NCBI GenBank assembly: GCA_029006155.1 | Contig: JAQXGF010000025.1 | Coordinates: 1-64,000 of the forward strand | Direction: 5' to 3' | Length of the DNA: 64,000 nucleotides | Origin: Lachnospiraceae bacterium | GTDB lineage: Bacteria > Bacillota > Clostridia > Lachnospirales > Lachnospiraceae | Part shown: piece after piece, positions 104 through 49,055 of the stretch | Numbering within the stretch: the first letter of the stretch is position 1 | How the letters are laid out: each line of letters starts with the position of its first letter | Made by a program: the position numbers and the translations under genes | Notes under the pieces: model-generated | What the model saw: only the letters and a program-made list of their open reading frames with translations | Databases searched by the model: none | What the model was told of the DNA's origin: nothing

Positions 104-1177
104 ATGCCTAAAAATAAGGTTTTCGGACAGGCTGAGGGGGATGGAGAGCTGGTCAATGATGAGGGCGCGGCAAATACAGCGGCGGAAAATGATGGCTTTG
201 CATGGAACCGCACACTGGAGACTGCAGCAAAGGAAAATGCCGATCTGAGTTTTGTCATCTCCGCAGGCGACCAGGTCAATAAGACCGGTAAGCCAAAGGA
301 AGAAGAATATGCGGCATACCTGAATTCTGAGGTGCTTTCCGGGTTGGCAGTAGCTACGACGATCGGAAACCATGACTCTCTGAATGAGGATTATATGTAT
401 CATTTCAATAATCCGAATGCGACCGAGTATGGAACGACGGCAGCAGGCGGTGACTACTATTATTCCTATGGTGACGGCCTGTTCATCGTGCTGAACACAA
501 ACAATTACAATGTGGCAGAGCACCAGAAAGCCATCGAGGAGGCGGTCGCTTCTGCTCCGGATGCAGCATGGAGAATTGTGACCATGCATCAGGATATTTA
601 CGGAACCGGTCTGGACCATTCGGATACGGACGGTATGATTCTCCGTACACAGCTGACCCCGATCTTTGATGCAAATGACATTGATGTAGTCCTTCAGGGA
701 CATGATCATACGTACAGCCGTTCCAAGATGCTCTACGGAGACGGACAGACACACGGCAAGTATGAGTTCTCTCTGACTGAGGATGGTTCTGATTATGACT
801 GGGATCATGCGACGAACACAGAGACCGGTGAGAAGATTTCGCTCAATCCGGAGGAAGGCGACGAGGAGGCTGCAGCAGCGCTTGACGCGTTCCAGCAGGA
901 CAACCTCTGCTATACCATCGAGGATGTGGATGGCAACAGCGTGACGGATCCGGAGGGTATCCTGTATCTGACGGCCAACTCTGCGAGTGGTTCTAAATTT
1001 TATGAGCTGATCGCACAGCAGCAGGATTACATTGCAGCGAGAAGCCAGAACTGGCTGCCGAGCTATTCGATTATTACTCTGACCAAAGATACCTTCTCCG
1101 TAGATGCTTATCAGATCACGGATGATGGAACGGTAGAGACGATTGATGATACCTTTACGATCACAAAGACCAAATAA
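104..1177 (+). pseudogene. N-terminally truncated metallophosphoesterase (purple-acid-phosphatase-like)
   Basis: Calcineurin-like phosphoesterase core with SAGDQV (Gly-Asp 55-56), GNHD (88-91), a catalytic-site His in VTMHQD (His162) and GHDH (199-202). Related secreted clostridial enzymes start with a signal peptide, a fibronectin-like domain and a first metal-ligand motif of the type GDPQ before this core. Here the readable frame starts after that point, and the same frame has a TGA at 83-85, so both the export signal and the first metal-binding Asp are missing. The ATG at 104 has a purine-rich stretch (AAGGAAAGGGG) upstream, so a short product could still be made. I read it as a 5'-truncated gene, probably inactive. 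The window edge is only 103 bases away, so a frameshift that leaves the N-terminus in another frame further left cannot be excluded. Confidence 0.6.
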
Positions 1178-1309: not shown

Positions 1310-2437
1310 ATGCGTCAGAAAATTCGAACATTCATCATCCCGGCCATTATGCTGGTGATATTTTTTATATTTATTGTAGCCATTAACCGTGTCACAAAGA
1401 CAGAGCTGGTCAGCCGTTCCGGACAGACATTTGAGAAAGCGGTCGTAAAAGAAGTGCTGGTGGATAATTTACAGGCCGACGGCTCCAGAGTCGGGCAGCA
1501 GACGGTGACGGTCGAAATGCTGACCGGTGTACGAAAAGGTGAGACACTGGAAGTGACGAGCAGTTCCGGATATCTGTTTGGTGCGGGCTGTACACCTGGG
1601 ATGCACGTCATCGTCATGCAGAGCGTGGCGGGCGAGACGACGATTGCGAGCGTGTATACGCAGGATCGGGAGTGGGTCATTTATCTCTTTGCCGGGCTTT
1701 ATCTGCTGCTTCTCTGTGTGATCGGAGGAAAACAGGGAATCCGGGGAAGCCTCGGACTGGTCTTTACGTTTATCAGCGTGATTTTTATCTATATTCCATT
1801 GATTTATCGTGGCTTTTCTCCATTCTGGGTAGCTGTATTCGTGTGTGTTATCACGACGGTTATCACGATGTATCTGATCGGTGGTGCGGGACGGAAGACG
1901 GTCTGTGCGATCGGAGGAACCGTTGCGGGTGTCCTCTGTGCCGGAGTGACGGCGATTTTATTCAGTAAGGCATCCGGAATTTCCGGCTATAATGTATCGG
2001 ATATCGAGACGCTTCTGACTCTGTGGAATACGGAAGGCATTCAGGTCGGCGGCCTTTTGTTTTCCGGACTTCTGATCTCTGCACTTGGCGCGACAATGGA
2101 TGTGGCGATGTCCGTCTCCAGTGCGATGGAAGAAATCATGCAACAGAATCCGTCTCTGACGCGGAAACAGCTATGGCTGGCGGGCATGCGCGTGGGCCGG
2201 GACATGATGGGGACCGACAGCAATACACTGATCCTTGCCTTTGCCGGGACGAGCAGCAGTACGTTGCTTCTGGATTATGCCTACGACCTCCCGTATCAGC
2301 AGATCATCAATTCCAACAATATCGGTATCGCCATCATGCAGGGACTGTCGGGAAGCTTTGGCATCGTGCTTTCTGTACCGCTGACCGTGACGCTGTGCGC
2401 GTGGTTGCTGAGGGGAAGAAAAGTGGGGGCTGAGTAA
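1310..2437 (+). CDS. YibE/F family membrane protein
   Basis: An integral membrane protein of about 375 residues of the YibE/F family. It has an N-terminal transmembrane anchor (about residues 8-26), an extracytoplasmic segment of roughly 100 residues with a small beta-rich domain, then about seven hydrophobic helices to the C-terminus. The stretch GRDMMGTDSNTLILAF is the conserved family signature in the later helices. The family's function is not established; a transport role is often suggested. I start at ATG 1310 because GGAG lies 6 bases upstream; an in-frame ATG at 1298 is the alternative. It follows a strong terminator, so it should have its own promoter, which I could not define. Confidence 0.8.
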   Translation: MRQKIRTFIIPAIMLVIFFIFIVAINRVTKTELVSRSGQTFEKAVVKEVLVDNLQADGSRVGQQTVTVEMLTGVRKGETLEVTSSSGYLFGAGCTPGMHVIVMQSVAGETTIASVYTQDREWVIYLFAGLYLLLLCVIGGKQGIRGSLGLVFTFISVIFIYIPLIYRGFSPFWVAVFVCVITTVITMYLIGGAGRKTVCAIGGTVAGVLCAGVTAILFSKASGISGYNVSDIETLLTLWNTEGIQVGGLLFSGLLISALGATMDVAMSVSSAMEEIMQQNPSLTRKQLWLAGMRVGRDMMGTDSNTLILAFAGTSSSTLLLDYAYDLPYQQIINSNNIGIAIMQGLSGSFGIVLSVPLTVTLCAWLLRGRKVGAE

Positions 2438-5060: not shown

Positions 5061-5666
5061 ATGAGCAGCAGAATTGAACAGATTATTGAAGAGATCGAAG
5101 AGTATGTCGACAGCTGTAAGTTCCAGCCGCTGTCATCTACGAAAATCGTTGTAAATAAGGAAGAACTGGAGGAAATGCTCCGGGAGCTCCGGATGAAGAC
5201 GCCGGATGAGATCAAGCGTTATCAGAAGATCATCAGCAATAAGGATGCGATCCTGGAGGATGCGCAGACGAAGGCGGATGCGATTATCGCAGATGCGAAT
5301 ACACAGGCACAGAAGATCGTCAGCGAGAGCGAGGTCATGCAGGCAGCGATGCAGCAGTCTCAGCAGCTGATCGATGAGACGAACGCACAGGCGCAGGAGA
5401 TCATCGACAAGGCGACACAGGATTCCAATGAGATCCGTATGAGCGCGATCCGCTATACCGATGAGATGCTGGAGAATCTTGAAAAGATCATGAGCCACAC
5501 GATCGATGCGGCCGGTACGAAGTACAGCAACTTCATTAATTCCATTCAGTCCTGCTATGATATCGTGAATAAGAACCGGATGGAGCTTTCCCCGCAGGCA
5601 GCGCCGTCCAGCTACACGCAGGTGCCGGAGGAAGAGACTTCAGGGGAGACCACATCCGAAGAGTAA
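5061..5666 (+). CDS. Coiled-coil protein of unknown function (DivIVA/ATPase-subunit-like)
   Basis: I do not recognise a named family. The 201-residue soluble protein begins with a short acidic helix and a conserved-looking block ending in VVNKEELEEMLRELRMKTPDEIKRY (about 29-55). A long helical region (about 55-135) follows with ADA/AQ-rich heptads (DAQTKADAIIADANTQAQKI). The C-terminal third could form a second bundle, then there is a Pro/Ser/Thr/Glu tail. The heptads resemble DivIVA or V/F-type ATPase peripheral-stalk proteins, but that may be simple coiled-coil similarity. It sits 22 bases after coaD with a clear AGGAGAG site and is likely co-transcribed, which hints at a housekeeping or division role without proving one. 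Confidence 0.75.
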   Translation: MSSRIEQIIEEIEEYVDSCKFQPLSSTKIVVNKEELEEMLRELRMKTPDEIKRYQKIISNKDAILEDAQTKADAIIADANTQAQKIVSESEVMQAAMQQSQQLIDETNAQAQEIIDKATQDSNEIRMSAIRYTDEMLENLEKIMSHTIDAAGTKYSNFINSIQSCYDIVNKNRMELSPQAAPSSYTQVPEEETSGETTSEE

Positions 5667-5712: not shown

Positions 5713-6670
5713 ACTTATAAGTTCCAATCAGCAGCATGGCAATCGAAAGCAGGCAGGAGATCGCTACGACTCCGAGTCTGCTTTTTATGTAGGCGCGGAG
5801 CATGGTGCGATCCATACGGGCCATTCCGACGGACTGGGCGATGACGGAGCATCCTCCAAAAGCTGCGAGCGCCGGGATGAGCACGAACTGGACCGGGAAG
5901 GAAAGCGCAGAATGTGCAATCAGATGAATGCCATTCGTAAGCTCCAGTGCCGCGAGCAGGATCAGGCCGGCGGGCGAAGCTGCAAGGGGGATGGAAGCTG
6001 TGGCATCTGCCAGCATGGAAAAGACGATGAGATAGACGCCAATCCGGACGGTGGCAGATACGGCATCTTCAATACAGCTGTCTATAAGGGAAAAGCAGTC
6101 CTTCTGTGAGCTGTGGATGTCCGCGGCACGGACCGGGCCGGATTGTGAGGGCACATCTGTTACGGCACGAGTGCGAAAAGAAGAAAGCATTCCGTAGAGC
6201 AGTGCAGATCCGAACACATTTCCGATGAGCACAGGACCGAGTTCCGGGCGTTGCCACTGATCGGCGGCGACATAGGCGAGCAGGAACGCCGGGCTGGCAT
6301 TGTTGATAAATCCGATGAGGTGACAGGCTTCGGCGTGAGTGATTTTTTGCTGGTCGAGCAGTATGCGTGTCAGCTTTGCACCCATCGGGAAGCCAGCGGT
6401 GAAGCCACAGAGAATCGCAAAAGCGCCGTATCCGGAGCAGCCAAAGAGCGGGGTGAGACATCGGCGCAGGAGCGGAAGCAGTGGTTCGAGCAGCCGGAGA
6501 CGAAGCAGAAGACCGGTGAGCAGCATAAATGGAAATAAGGTCGGAACGACAGAATGATACCATAAAAGCAGTCCGCTGCGCACGGACGACAGCGCGGCCT
6601 GTGGCATACAGAGCAGATAGAGAAATGCACAGGCAAAGAGCAGAAGAAACAGGATTTTTTTTGACCGCAT
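5711..6670 (-). CDS. ylbJ: Sporulation integral membrane protein YlbJ
   Basis: Polytopic inner-membrane protein of 319 residues with about eight hydrophobic helices and the nucleoside-recognition/Gate-type signature GFTAGFPMGAKLTRIL in the middle. In Bacillus, YlbJ is made in the mother cell and is needed for spore cortex formation. The neighbourhood supports the call: ylbJ also follows rsmD and coaD in Bacillus, though here it is inverted. The start ATG at 6670 begins MRSKKILFLLLFACAFLY, a typical first membrane helix. No convincing promoter was seen in the 90 bases shared with the divergent serine hydrolase; a sigma-E-like CATAAAAT lies there without a clear partner. Confidence 0.82.
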   Translation of the reverse strand: MRSKKILFLLLFACAFLYLLCMPQAALSSVRSGLLLWYHSVVPTLFPFMLLTGLLLRLRLLEPLLPLLRRCLTPLFGCSGYGAFAILCGFTAGFPMGAKLTRILLDQQKITHAEACHLIGFINNASPAFLLAYVAADQWQRPELGPVLIGNVFGSALLYGMLSSFRTRAVTDVPSQSGPVRAADIHSSQKDCFSLIDSCIEDAVSATVRIGVYLIVFSMLADATASIPLAASPAGLILLAALELTNGIHLIAHSALSFPVQFVLIPALAAFGGCSVIAQSVGMARMDRTMLRAYIKSRLGVVAISCLLSIAMLLIGTYK

Positions 6671-17505: not shown

Positions 17506-18684
17506 ATGCAGAAAATTTTACATACACCGGAGGGCGTGCGTGATATTTACAGCAAAGAATGCGGGCAGAAGCTCGTGCTGCAGGAGAAACTGCATGCCAT
17601 GATCCGATCTTACGGCTATCAGGATATCGAGACGCCGACGTTTGAGTATTTCGATGTATTCAGCAAGGAGATCGGGACGACGCCATCCAGAGAGCTTTAC
17701 AAGTTTTTTGACCGTGATGGGAATACGCTTGTGCTCCGGCCGGATTTTACACCGTCAATCGCACGTGCGGCATCCAAATATTTTCGGAACAGTCCTGCGG
17801 CAGTCCGGTTGACCTACCTTGGCAATACTTATATCAACAGTTCGAGCTATCAGGGACGGCTCAAGGAGACGACACAGATCGGCGGGGAGCTGATCGGGGA
17901 TGACAGCGCAGATGCAGATGCAGAGATTATCGCACTCGTCGCAGAGATGCTGCAGTCGTGTGGACTTTCGGAATTCCAGATCAGTCTCGGACATGTCGGC
18001 TTTTTCCGGGCACTCGTAAAAGAGGCGGGGCTGGATGAGCAGACCGCACTGGAGCTGAAAACGCTGATCAAGAATAAGAATACATTCGGAGTGGAGAAGC
18101 TGCTCGCAAAGGCTGAGATCAGCCCGGACCTGAAAACGCTCTTTGCCTCTCTGACGAGTTTGTTTGGTACGGAGGAGGTGCTGGATAAAGCCGCCACTAT
18201 GACGGCGAACCCGGATGCATTAGCAGCGTTGGAACGGCTGTGTGAGATCTGGCGGATTCTGAAGCTGTACAAAGTCGAACAGTACGTGTCCTTTGACCTC
18301 GGTATGGTCAGCGGCTATATGTACTATACCGGAATCATGTTCCGGGGCTACACGTTCGGAACGGGGGATGCGATCATCAAGGGTGGACGTTATGACAGTC
18401 TGCTGCAGCATTTTGGCATGGATGCCCCGGCGGTCGGCTTTGTGGCGGTCATTGATCAGCTGCTGAATGCCCTGAGCCGTCAGAAGATCCGGCAGCAGAT
18501 CCCGGCAAATCACTGCATGATCCTTTATGAAGCGGAAAAGCTTTCTGAGGCGATTGAGAAAGCATCGGAGCTTCGGGGAAGAGGCATTGATGTGGAGCTG
18601 GTGCGCATTACTGCCGGGAGATCCCGCGAAGCGTGCAGAGCCTATGCGAAGGCAGAGGACTGCGTGCTGGTGGTGGAGCTTTAA
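17506..18684 (+). CDS. hisZ: ATP phosphoribosyltransferase regulatory subunit HisZ
   Basis: Catalytically inactive histidyl-tRNA-synthetase paralogue that binds short-form HisG and makes it responsive to histidine; first committed step of histidine biosynthesis. It has the class II synthetase fold (LHTPEGVRDIYSKEC, RPDFTPSIAR, YYTGIMFRGY) at 392 residues, shorter than true HisRS and without the anticodon-binding domain length. ATG 17506 has AAGGGG about 9 bases upstream; the frame also allows a GTG at 17488. The stop codon coincides with the first bases of a deleted family 1 repeat. Confidence 0.93.
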   Translation: MQKILHTPEGVRDIYSKECGQKLVLQEKLHAMIRSYGYQDIETPTFEYFDVFSKEIGTTPSRELYKFFDRDGNTLVLRPDFTPSIARAASKYFRNSPAAVRLTYLGNTYINSSSYQGRLKETTQIGGELIGDDSADADAEIIALVAEMLQSCGLSEFQISLGHVGFFRALVKEAGLDEQTALELKTLIKNKNTFGVEKLLAKAEISPDLKTLFASLTSLFGTEEVLDKAATMTANPDALAALERLCEIWRILKLYKVEQYVSFDLGMVSGYMYYTGIMFRGYTFGTGDAIIKGGRYDSLLQHFGMDAPAVGFVAVIDQLLNALSRQKIRQQIPANHCMILYEAEKLSEAIEKASELRGRGIDVELVRITAGRSREACRAYAKAEDCVLVVEL

Positions 18685-18746
18685 CCGAATCAAGCAAGTC
18701 CCCGGCTTCAATTACGAGGAGCAATAAGCAGTGGATTGCGAAGATC
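18683..18746 (+). repeat. Internally deleted copy of structured repeat family 1 between hisZ and hisG
   Basis: Starts AACCGAATCAAGCAAGTC at the hisZ stop codon and continues through CTTCAATTACGAGGAGCAAT to AAGCAGT. It then joins directly to the family's last bases GGATTGCGAA at 18732. Compared with the full copy at 48889, the descending half of the first hairpin, the second and third hairpins and most of the tail are absent. Confidence 0.8.
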
Positions 18747-18772
18747 CGCTATATAGTATGGAGAGTGACAGA

Positions 18773-19455: not shown

Positions 19456-20751
19456 ATGAAGCTTGTAACACTGACACAGGAGACAAAAAAGGATCTGCTG
19501 AACCATCTTTTAAAGCGCAGCCCGAATAACTACGGTGCATTTGAAGAGCGGGTGCAGGCGATTATTCAGGAGGTGCGCGCAAAAGGCGACGAGGCGCTTT
19601 TCGCATACACAAAGCAGTTTGACGGCGTGGAAATTACAGCAGATACGATTAAGGTGACACCGGAGGAGATCGAGGAGGCGTACCGCGAGGTGGAGCCATC
19701 CCTTTTGGATGTCATCCGCAAATCGCTGGTCAACATCCGCAGCTATCATGAGAAGCAGAAAAAATACAGCTGGTTCGATACGACAGAAAATGGCACAATC
19801 CTCGGGCAGAAGGTGACACCACTTGGAACGGTCGGTGTCTATGTGCCGGGTGGAAAGGCCGTGTATCCATCTTCGGTGTTGATGAATGTCGTTCCGGCCA
19901 AAGTTGCCGGTGTCGGACGGATCGTCATGACGACACCGCCTGGAAAGGACGGCAAGATTCCGGCATCCACGCTCGTGGCGGCGCATGAGGCCGGAACCGA
20001 TGAGATCTACAAGGTCGGCGGCGCACAGGCGATCGCAGCTTTAGCCTATGGCACAGAGAGTATCCCGAAGGCAGATAAGATCACCGGCCCGGGCAATATT
20101 TACGTCGCACTGGCCAAGCGGGCCGTCTATGGCCATGTGAGCATTGATTCGGTAGCAGGACCGAGCGAGATCCTCGTACTGGCCGATGAGACCGCGACTC
20201 CGCGCTATGTGGCGGCAGACCTGCTCTCACAGGCAGAGCACGATGAGATGGCGTCTGCGATCCTTGTCACGACGAGTAAGACTCTGGCAGAGGCAGTCTT
20301 GAAGGAGATCGACGGATTCTTAAAGGAGCTTTCCAGGGCAGAGATCATTCAGAAGTCGCTGGATCAGTACGGTTTTATCCTGCTCGCTGACAGCATGGAC
20401 GACGCGATCGATGCGGTCAACGCGATAGCATCCGAGCATCTGGAGATCGTGACAGCGAATCCGTTCGAGGTCATGACAAAGGTGCGCAATGCAGGCGCGA
20501 TCTTCATCGGGGAGTACAGCAGTGAGCCGCTCGGCGACTATTTTGCAGGACCGAACCATGTCCTGCCGACGAATGGCACGGCGAAATTTTTCTCTGCACT
20601 TTCCGTGGATGATTTTATTAAAAAATCAAGCATCGTGTACTATTCCAGAGAAGCGCTTGAGCCGATCCACAAGGATATTATCGCATTTGCGGAGGCCGAG
20701 AAGCTGACGGCACATGCGAATTCGATCCGGGTACGGTTTGAACGCAGATAA
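19456..20751 (+). CDS. hisD: Histidinol dehydrogenase
   Basis: NAD-dependent, zinc-requiring enzyme that oxidises histidinol to histidine in two steps. The 431 residues hold GTVGVYVPGGKAVYPSSVLM, DSVAGPSEILVLAD, SQAEHDEMA (zinc and catalytic histidines) and GPNHVLPT. It starts 17 bases after hisG with AGGGAGG. Its last codons, Glu-Arg-Arg-stop, supply the 5' arm of the closing stem of the full repeat copy that fills the gap to hisB. Confidence 0.95.
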   Translation: MKLVTLTQETKKDLLNHLLKRSPNNYGAFEERVQAIIQEVRAKGDEALFAYTKQFDGVEITADTIKVTPEEIEEAYREVEPSLLDVIRKSLVNIRSYHEKQKKYSWFDTTENGTILGQKVTPLGTVGVYVPGGKAVYPSSVLMNVVPAKVAGVGRIVMTTPPGKDGKIPASTLVAAHEAGTDEIYKVGGAQAIAALAYGTESIPKADKITGPGNIYVALAKRAVYGHVSIDSVAGPSEILVLADETATPRYVAADLLSQAEHDEMASAILVTTSKTLAEAVLKEIDGFLKELSRAEIIQKSLDQYGFILLADSMDDAIDAVNAIASEHLEIVTANPFEVMTKVRNAGAIFIGEYSSEPLGDYFAGPNHVLPTNGTAKFFSALSVDDFIKKSSIVYYSREALEPIHKDIIAFAEAEKLTAHANSIRVRFERR

Positions 20752-20892
20752 GCATCCACCCGTTTCAAGTGCACGGAGCACTAAACGGTGGGTGAGGGGG
20801 GATGCTTATGCCAGTGGGAGTTGAAAGCTCCCACTGACAGATCGCGAAGCGACTGCGTTCATGAGCAAGTAGCGAAGCGGATTGCGAATGTC
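20740..20892 (+). repeat. Full copy of structured repeat family 1 between hisD and hisB
   Basis: Predicted fold: closing stem GAACGCAG (20740-20747) with CTGCGTTC (20853-20860). First arm AAGCATCC (20750-20757) with GGATGCTT (20800-20807), carrying an inner stem CCGTTT/AAACGG and GTGC/GCAC. Second hairpin CAGTGGGAG/CTCCCACTG (20812-20836). Third hairpin TCGC-GAA-GCGA (20842-20852). Then a tail at 20861-20892 that differs from the copy at 48889 only near its last bases. No open reading frame. The left arm of the closing stem is hisD coding sequence. Confidence 0.85.
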
Positions 20893-20981
20893 TGCATATC
20901 AGCTGCGAAACAGACTGGGAACCTCGTGCTGGTAAATGGGCAGAGGTGCAGGAAAGAGAACAGAGGAAGAGGAGAGACGAG

Positions 20982-24604: not shown

Positions 24605-24936
24605 GAGTCAAAGCGAAAAGGAAAATGCGATGACGGGGAATAGTAAGCGCAGTTGTTTTTTTCAGAGAGGTGCCGGATGGTGTGAGGCATCAGAAGCACT
24701 GAGTGGAACTCGCCCCTGAGCGGCTGCCCCAAATGGATCCGATGATTGTTATCCGGTGACAGAGTAGGCGCAGACGGATCACCCGACCGTTACACGGGCA
24801 GGATATAAGGCAGAGCCGTTTCCGGCGTGTCCGTATCTGCAGAGTGCATGAGCGATCATGAATAAGAGTGGTACCGCGAAAGATTTGTCATCTTCCGTCT
24901 CTTGAGATCCGAGAGGATTTCAGGAGGCGGTTTTTT
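24605..24936 (+). ncRNA. T-box leader, leucine-specific (CUC specifier), upstream of leuA
   Basis: Transcription attenuator that senses uncharged tRNA. The sequence shows GACGGGGAATAGTAA at the base of stem I, the GAGAGG/GGTG distal region, and the specifier-loop segment GTGGAACTCGCCCC, in which CTC (24709-24711) is a leucine codon. The T-box sequence AGTGGTACCGCG is at 24867-24878, and the terminator at 24895-24936. The specifier fits leuA directly downstream. The exact stem boundaries are my reading by eye. Confidence 0.88.
24895..24936 (+). terminator. T-box-controlled terminator
   Basis: CCGTCTC pairs with GAGGCGG and AGATCC with GGATTT inside it, followed by six T. The left strand can instead pair with the T-box region to form the antiterminator. 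Confidence 0.82.
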
Positions 24937-37522: not shown

Positions 37523-37719
37523 ATGATACAAGGGTCAAAAGGTATTTTGACCCCTATGATACACGGATTGCTTCGCATTTCATGCTCTCGCAATCCTAAA
37601 ACACCCCAAATCCGCTCATTTTTCTACGAAAAATGGCTACTTTTCGGTGTTTTGCGGGTCAATAAGCCATGCTTTTTCATGCAAGCATGAAACGCATGAC
37701 CTTTTGACCCTTGTATCAT
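37523..37719. repeat. 197-nt element with 21-bp perfect terminal inverted repeats
   Basis: ATGATACAAGGGTCAAAAGG plus T at 37523-37543 is the exact complement of 37699-37719. Inside are three more hairpins: GGGTCAAAA/TTTTGACCC (within and next to the left arm), GGATTGC/GCAATCC (37555-37590 region) and AAAACACC/GGTGTTTT enclosing ATTTTT/AAAAAT. The word ATATACATGA occurs at 37517-37526 and 37721-37730, which could be a target-site duplication. No coding capacity. It fills most of the gap between alr and mazF. Confidence 0.8.
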
Positions 37720-48854: not shown

Positions 48855-48888
48855 CGGGCTGCTGCAGGTTTGTGGCAGCCCGTTTTTT
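48855..48888 (+). terminator. Terminator of nfnAB
   Basis: CGGGCTGC (48855-48862) pairs with GCAGCCCG (48875-48882), followed by six T (48883-48888). Confidence 0.92.
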
Positions 48889-49040
48889 AACCGAGTCAAG
48901 TAAGTTCCCTGCTTCAATTGCGAGGAGCAATAAGCAGTAGGTGGGGACTTACTTGTATCAGGAGGAGTGCAAACTCCTTCTGATAAACTGCGAAGCAGTT
49001 ACTCGGTTATGAGCAAGTAGCGAAGCGGATTGCGAATATC
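48889..49040 (+). repeat. Full copy of structured repeat family 1 between nfnB and rlmH
   Basis: Closing stem AACCGAGT (48889-48896) with ACTCGGTT (49001-49008). Arm 1 AAGTAAGT..CCC with GGGGACTTACTT, inner stem CTGCTT/AAGCAG and TTGC/GCAA (48898-48954). Arm 2 TATCAG-AGGAGT/ACTCCT-CTGATA (48956-48985). Arm 3 AACTGC-GAA-GCAGTT (48986-49000). Tail 49009-49040, conserved with the hisD-hisB copy. It starts exactly at the end of the nfnB terminator's T-run and ends 15 bases before rlmH. Confidence 0.85.
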
Positions 49041-49055
49041 CGATAGGAGTAAAGC

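Follow-up and report, generated by a model that had tools for sequence, protein, structure and literature searches.

A folded repeat family of Lachnospiraceae as a probable miniature transposon of the single-strand type

The closest described counterparts of the repeat considered here, called family 1, are the IS200/IS605 elements and the palindrome-associated transposable elements (PATEs), whose insertion mode was compared on the basis of part of PMC7290912. Family 1 is like these in being folded at both ends, with hairpins at each, in inserting 3' of a preferred pentamer of which an empty site has been seen, in making no target duplication, and in bearing signs that the target is read by base pairing. 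On the other hand, the IS200/IS605 guide occupies the hairpin's 5' foot, whereas in family 1 the left fold pairs with the fourth target base through its 3' side; this fold has three arms and is followed by a tail module common to the Rfam family RF01699 (Clostridiales-1).

RF01699 was rated probably RNA, and probably not cis-regulatory, in the relevant part of the survey of Weinberg et al. 2010 (PMC2864571), the one fitting paper found on Clostridiales-1. It resembles family 1 in the tail module and in being multi-copy in the same genus, but its module sits in an inner arm rather than at the end, some of its copies have inverted ends and a duplication of about 6 nt, and its gathering cut-off is not reached by family 1. 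With REP sequences, whose features were taken from part of PMC3733652, family 1 has in common a GTAG beside a short hairpin and the dispersal of its copies, but its fold is much larger, no REP-associated tyrosine transposase (RAYT) was seen beside the copies, and a TTTRA site is preferred. A description of family 1 was not found in the titles and abstract openings of open-access literature on REP/RAYT, Lachnospiraceae repeats, ISDra2/IS605 targets, PATEs, Clostridiales-1 and MITEs. Family 1 is probably a miniature transposon of Lachnospiraceae, non-autonomous and moving in the manner of a single-strand element of the IS200/IS605 type.

The copies, their fold and their distribution

The window, i.e., the whole stretch of 64,000 nt that was analysed, contains two copies of the element, found at 48889-49040 and 20740-20892 and folding as first described, and a third, internally deleted one (Table 1; gene context assigned by NCBIfam). 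The initial annotation had proposed a plan shared by the first two, with a closing stem, a long first arm with an inner loop, a second arm, a short hairpin with a GAA loop and a 3' tail, and all of these parts are present at those coordinates, as are the five quoted stem pairs that are changed on both sides (e.g., TTGC/GCAA against GTGC/GCAC, GCTT/AAGC against GTTT/AAAC, and TGC-GAA-GCA against CGC-GAA-GCG). The full element measures about 158 nt. The left edge of the window copies is defined by the target pentamer, and comparison with other copies puts the end of the tail at about 49048 in copy 1 and about 20900 in copy 2, where the last bases of both have decayed (GATAGGA in copy 1, compared with CTTGAC or CTTTGA in others). 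The tail module of copy 1 overlaps the 3' strand of its closing stem. Copy 2 provides the current stop codon of hisD (20749-20751), while the C-terminal VVEL and stop of hisZ, beside the third copy, are the same in three of the four relatives printed (G025, G003 and G023; G027 differs), those three having no element there. The window also holds a T-box leader (RF00230, 117 bits) at 24621-24905 on the forward strand.

Table 1. Features of family 1 and of RF01699 in the window, and loci at which the tail of family 1 lies within uvrB
Feature	Position	Strand	Remarks
TTTAA, insertion site 5' of copy 1	48886..48890	+	
Copy 1, TTTAA type	48891..49048	+	between a gltA-type glutamate synthase gene and rlmH
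Copy 1, closing stem, 5' strand	48889..48896	+	overlaps the AA of the target
Copy 1, arm 1	48898..48954	+	conserved inner loop
Copy 1, arm 2	48956..48985	+	
Copy 1, arm 3	48986..49000	+	GAA loop
Copy 1, closing stem, 3' strand	49001..49008	+	final base opposite target base 4
Copy 1, tail module	49004..49042	+	two-loop hairpin; GA/GA and GTA/GGA internal loops around GCAA/TTGC; common to RF01699
TTTGA, insertion site of copy 2	20737..20741	+	3' end of hisD
Copy 2, TTTGA type	20742..20900	+	between hisD and hisB; right end decayed
Copy 2, tail module	20856..20894	+	
TTTAA, target of the third copy	18680..18684	+	also the hisZ stop
Third copy, internally deleted	18685..18754	+	between hisZ and hisG; left part fused to tail end
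RF01699 copy	37524..37718	-	37557-37718 with an extra 3' stretch completing an inverted repeat (by eye)
uvrB with SQSASLLAHE extension from the tail of a short copy	L269: ~6540-6615	+	
the same	L351: ~985-1065	+	
the same	L055: ~1501-1580	-	

Across 48 distinct copies (49 aligned), 94.3% of cells pair, compared with 82.5% in shuffles, and sliding the partners lowers the pairing to 38-46%; two-sided changes occur in 33 of 51 pairs, against 21.1 in shuffles, and none of 500 shuffles reaches any of the five covariation measures, in an alignment that leans towards structure because it was fitted to the covariance model. A MAFFT alignment of 16 copies, which was read with RNAalifold's own structure and was not fitted to the model, has two-sided changes in 16 of 51 pairs. 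The conserved nucleic-acid fold with compensatory change that had been proposed is therefore borne out on both alignments, and its stems co-vary over a larger number of copies. The closing stem alone occurs as CCGAAT, CCTCAT, CACGAT, ACGCAG, ACCATT and other variants, each with its matching partner. The arms are optional, given that copies of 76 nt retain the closing stem, arm 3 and the tail, that copies of 209 nt have one additional hairpin, and that in minimal copies the left end is joined directly to the tail, which is more constant in sequence than the arms.

The family reaches far beyond the first two copies. A blastn search with copy 1 returned at least 51 rows at E values up to 1 in its own genome (among the 40 of 142 candidates scored, one copy possibly yielding two rows), and a covariance model (R1) built from 16 copies gave at least 62 matches there (62 of 1202 candidates scored, all of which matched). 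Outside this genome, R1 matches numbered 34 in G024, 56 in G025 and one or two in five others (G and L marking genomes and loci, respectively), which makes 8 of the 47 genomes of the genus, own genome included, while among 200 genomes sampled evenly across the family, nearly all of different genera, 41 had matches. A pattern scan of named genomes found at least 110 stretches, of which 80 were tabled by title. The matches listed come from Blautia, Lacrimispora, Roseburia, Eubacterium ramulus, Fusicatenibacter, Faecalicatena, Catenibacillus, Hominisplanchenecus and other Lachnospiraceae, and from unclassified Eubacteriales or Clostridiales assemblies and one Clostridium sp. The distribution across gut Lachnospiraceae is patchy. 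The plasmids searched gave no match, and among phage records seven unannotated faecal scaffolds matched.

Within genomes, the copies behave as a dispersed repeat. Near-identical copies with different flanks made up 13 of the 14 stretches read in G204 and all 12 of those in G062, and G157 and G216 have subfamilies of their own. Tandem copies are joined end to end as TTGAC|CCGAATC or close variants of it (L005, L006, L011, L018 and L020). In three further loci the tail, antisense and in frame, encodes the peptide SQSASLLAHE within the N-terminal extension of UvrB (identified as such by NCBIfam; Table 1); L336 appears, by eye, to lie at a similar place.

Insertion sites and the coupling with the target base

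The pentamer 5' of the element was counted in the 52 full-length copies among 135 with a tail, the left partner being picked without the use of target bases 3 and 4, so that TTT was not rewarded. TTTAA was found in 31 copies, TTTGA in seven, other pentamers ending in TGA in six, and the remaining eight differ; counts in which TT was rewarded (TTTAA 61 and TTTGA 15 of 89) are biased and were set aside. Most copies are thus inserted directly 3' of TTTRA, and the ten bases upstream of the pentamer are merely A/T-rich beside the site. The right ends read TTGAC, TTTAC or TTTGA. A preference for stop codons is weak: an upstream frame that has stayed open for 80 codons or more terminates at the TTTRA of 10 of 82 copies, compared with 588 of 10,262 TTTRA sites in the loci.

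Two of the copies examined lie inside genes. In Hominisplanchenecus faecis (G073, L127 at ~1456-1551), a copy interrupts a gene for a Y1 (IS200/IS605-type) transposase directly after TTTGA(A), and the homologues in L234 and L235 (83-84% protein identity) continue across this point with neither gap nor duplication, which represents an empty site at the level of homologues rather than of pairs from the same strain. In an IMG/VR contig (L254, ~5165-5327, reverse strand), a full-length copy follows TTTAA inside a gene of the phage minor capsid type, the upstream piece of which has 31% identity to the minor capsid protein of Faecalibacterium phage FP_Lugh, while the downstream piece stays in frame and resembles, by eye, the rest of the same protein. 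Flank searches for this contig and two of the faecal scaffolds found no relative lacking the copy, and an all-against-all comparison of the flanks of 131 copies gave six pairs in which the gap was shorter, but in no case readable as a clean empty site. At the two window loci compared, the relatives of the genus are mostly 66-78% alike, which is too distant for empty sites to be read at the level of bases.

A target duplication was sought in the 6 nt before TTTRA (at least five of six matches) and occurred in none of 89 copies (shuffle mean 0.78, maximum 4); when the 6 nt ending with TTTRA were used, it was found in 4 of the 89, within the range of the shuffles (mean 1.5, maximum 7).

The fourth base of the target is coupled to the element base that precedes ATGAG. 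In the same 52 copies, with target base 4 excluded from the choice of the left partner, the combinations are A-T in 34, G-C in 14, T-T in three and T-A in one, and when four rows visibly out of register (L058, L282, L340 and one of L086) are left out they become A-T 31, G-C 13 and other 4. A looser choice of partners, up to 330 nt away and admitting chance ones, covered 103 of the 135 copies (A-T 48, G-C 18, others 37), after which only the full-length distance was kept, i.e., 52 of 135. The model alignment of 48 copies likewise has AU in 31, GC in 11 and other combinations in six. The tail base after GAAT also follows the element base: by eye, over 49 rows, it is G in all 11 copies with C and A in 34 of the 38 without it. 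Given that both the target base and the tail base follow it, the element base can pair with either the target or the tail hairpin; when the tail is folded by itself, it is the second of these pairings that forms. The coupling mainly separates two clades, so the independent events behind these counts may be few.

The tail module and Rfam RF01699

According to the initial annotation, no described RNA or repeat class fitted the two copies. This holds insofar as Rfam gave no match at gathering score at either of them or at five other family 1 loci, but the tail does match part of a described family below that level. RF01699 scored 26.5 bits on copy 1 (gathering cut-off 48 bits; E = 3.3e-4 in a search of 191 bases), with the tail as the best conserved part of the match, and the other four sub-threshold Rfam matches in this search had E values of 0.12 or worse. 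In the reverse direction, a model built from 14 family 1 tails alone (R2) was run on 30 RF01699 loci and found 20 of them with E values no higher than 0.003, and the other 10 not at that level; in the examples shown, its hits fall inside the RF01699 match. The tail fits the RF01699 arm module UGAGCA-G-AGC / GCGGA-UGCGAAU. At L408, GAGCAAGTAGC and GCGGATTGCGAATATC are letter-for-letter identical between the family 1 tail and RF01699, around a different apical hairpin.

Like family 1, RF01699 is dispersed and repeated, with occurrences in 43 of the 47 genomes of the genus. Of the candidates scored for it, 19 of 47 matched in own genome, while in three others the figure was 44 of 47. By eye, the inverted ends of the copies examined (L456-L471) are alike and read about TGATGCCAGGGTCAAA and TTTGACCCCAACATCA. 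Of the 13 copies that could be scored, 5 had a duplication of about 6 nt, with at least five of six bases alike (mean of the shuffles 0.86; 1 of 5000 shuffles got as high), three of the 16 copies having been dropped because the 3'-end pattern was absent and the 3' end having been defined after the flanks were seen. Given these inverted ends and the target duplications in some copies, RF01699 looks like a miniature transposon of a type different from family 1, rather than an RNA gene.

This link bears on an alternative reading, in which family 1 is a structured RNA, either a small RNA or an mRNA element, that is selected for its function as RNA and is mobile or multi-copy incidentally. The strong compensatory change over the 48 distinct copies, the constancy of the tail in comparison with the arms, and the sharing of that tail with a family rated as probable RNA by the 2010 survey (in the part cited above) are all in keeping with it. 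A fold in single-stranded DNA, however, gives equal covariation, and arms 1 and 2 are absent from a number of copies while others have extra hairpins. The preferred site, the empty site, the lack of duplication and the near-identical dispersed copies are traits of mobile DNA, for which the fold need not act as RNA, and a role as RNA is accordingly unlikely. The conserved-fold interpretation thus stands with respect to the compensatory fold, and is changed by the mobile-DNA behaviour and by the link to RF01699.

Candidate mobilising enzymes and a proposed mode of transposition

Since the folded ends, the TTTRA on the left and the lack of duplication resemble IS200/IS605 insertion, a Y1 enzyme acting in trans is taken here as the most likely mobiliser of family 1, and we infer its involvement from this likeness. 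Three Y1 genes are present in own genome. A PF01797 search of 20 apparently distinct element-bearing genomes (13 + 10, three shared) gave a match in 16, and none in G024, G157, Catenibacillus scindens and G254 (4 of 20), it being noted that draft assemblies may lose insertion sequences. In G204, where the copies are very similar, all three matches are broken by stops.

A TnpA-encoding parent with family 1 ends, a further point of difference from IS200/IS605, was not found in any of the sets of loci searched. The surroundings of the three Y1 loci of own genome had no match to the element beyond chance, and 30 Y1 loci from 13 genomes held no element with family 1 ends. Neither a Y1 nor a TnpB frame was seen in 80 tail loci of at least 110 listed (the Y1 scan having a positive control and the TnpB scan none). 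Among the 113 loci that Y1 or RAYT-like queries retrieved, of which some represent the same place, there was no Y1 gene with the tail at its own ends; the tail gave five hits in these loci, corresponding to three distinct copies, of which one is inserted in a Y1 gene and two are near such genes.

The mobiliser may alternatively be of another single-strand or replication-linked kind with TTTRA specificity, such as an HUH enzyme or slippage in plasmid or host replication, and the very similar copies of G204 beside no intact Y1 gene, the four element-bearing genomes with no Y1 match, and the resemblance of minimal copies to deletions between short CAAG repeats are consistent with this. No candidate gene was found for it, however, and this explanation is rated as less probable still than that of a structured RNA.

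Movement of a REP-type repeat by a RAYT would account for the GTAG 5' of the short tail hairpin and for copies that are dispersed and partly in tandem. RAYT-like genes matched in 45 of the 200 family genomes, but G204 and G216, with many copies each, are not among these, the match in own genome is weak (23% identity, E = 6.6e-4, with the HxH motif absent by eye), and 30 RAYT-like loci had no tail copy near the gene, which leaves this explanation a poor one. Two RAYT-like proteins of about 210-220 aa, at L164:964-1623 (+, G000:C143) and L129:1181-1813 (-, G073), seemingly have no HxH, by eye, and are possibly domesticated.

A MITE of a DDE transposase, with terminal inverted repeats, is the least probable source, given that no long inverted repeat is seen by eye and no target duplication was found (0 of 89), even though the size, the AT-rich target and the gene-less structure fit, RF01699, with the same tail module, has inverted ends and duplications, and TTTAA-type copies have by eye a short TCAAGC/GCTTGA inverted match near their ends. 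Both the RAYT and the classic MITE readings were set aside on these grounds, i.e., the RAYT-like loci without a tail, and the lack of duplication and of a long inverted repeat.

In transposition of the IS200/IS605 type, which is the preferred reading, a transposase supplied in trans would bind both folded ends in single-stranded DNA, the left end consisting of the closing stem together with its arms, three at most, and the right end of the tail hairpin. Reading of the target would fall, by base pairing, to the closing stem's 3' strand (..YAT-GAG), whose Y would have two possible partners, base 4 of TTTRA and an R of the tail hairpin. The arms would be passengers, because armless copies (about 50-76 nt) and copies with an extra hairpin occur at separate sites. 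The host would gain nothing that it needs, although now and then a copy becomes a piece of a gene.

A broader proposal, and a more tentative one, takes the two-loop tail hairpin of about 40 nt as a portable recruiting module. It might serve two or more miniature transposons that differ in the chemistry of their insertion, namely family 1 with TTTRA and no duplication and RF01699 with inverted ends and duplication, both of which would borrow the same cellular factor. Clostridiales-1 RNA would then be a transposon and not an RNA gene, and the choice of one family 1 base between target and tail pairing might act as a built-in switch that sets the target.

If this account is true, many of the structured repeats of common gut bacteria, a large class, would be explained by it, and a family held in Rfam as RNA would be re-filed as mobile DNA, covariation alone being no proof of RNA. 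The family would also provide natural variants of ends and targets from which the base-pairing code of single-strand transposition is readable, and the UvrB extension would exemplify the end of a mobile element that has become coding sequence.
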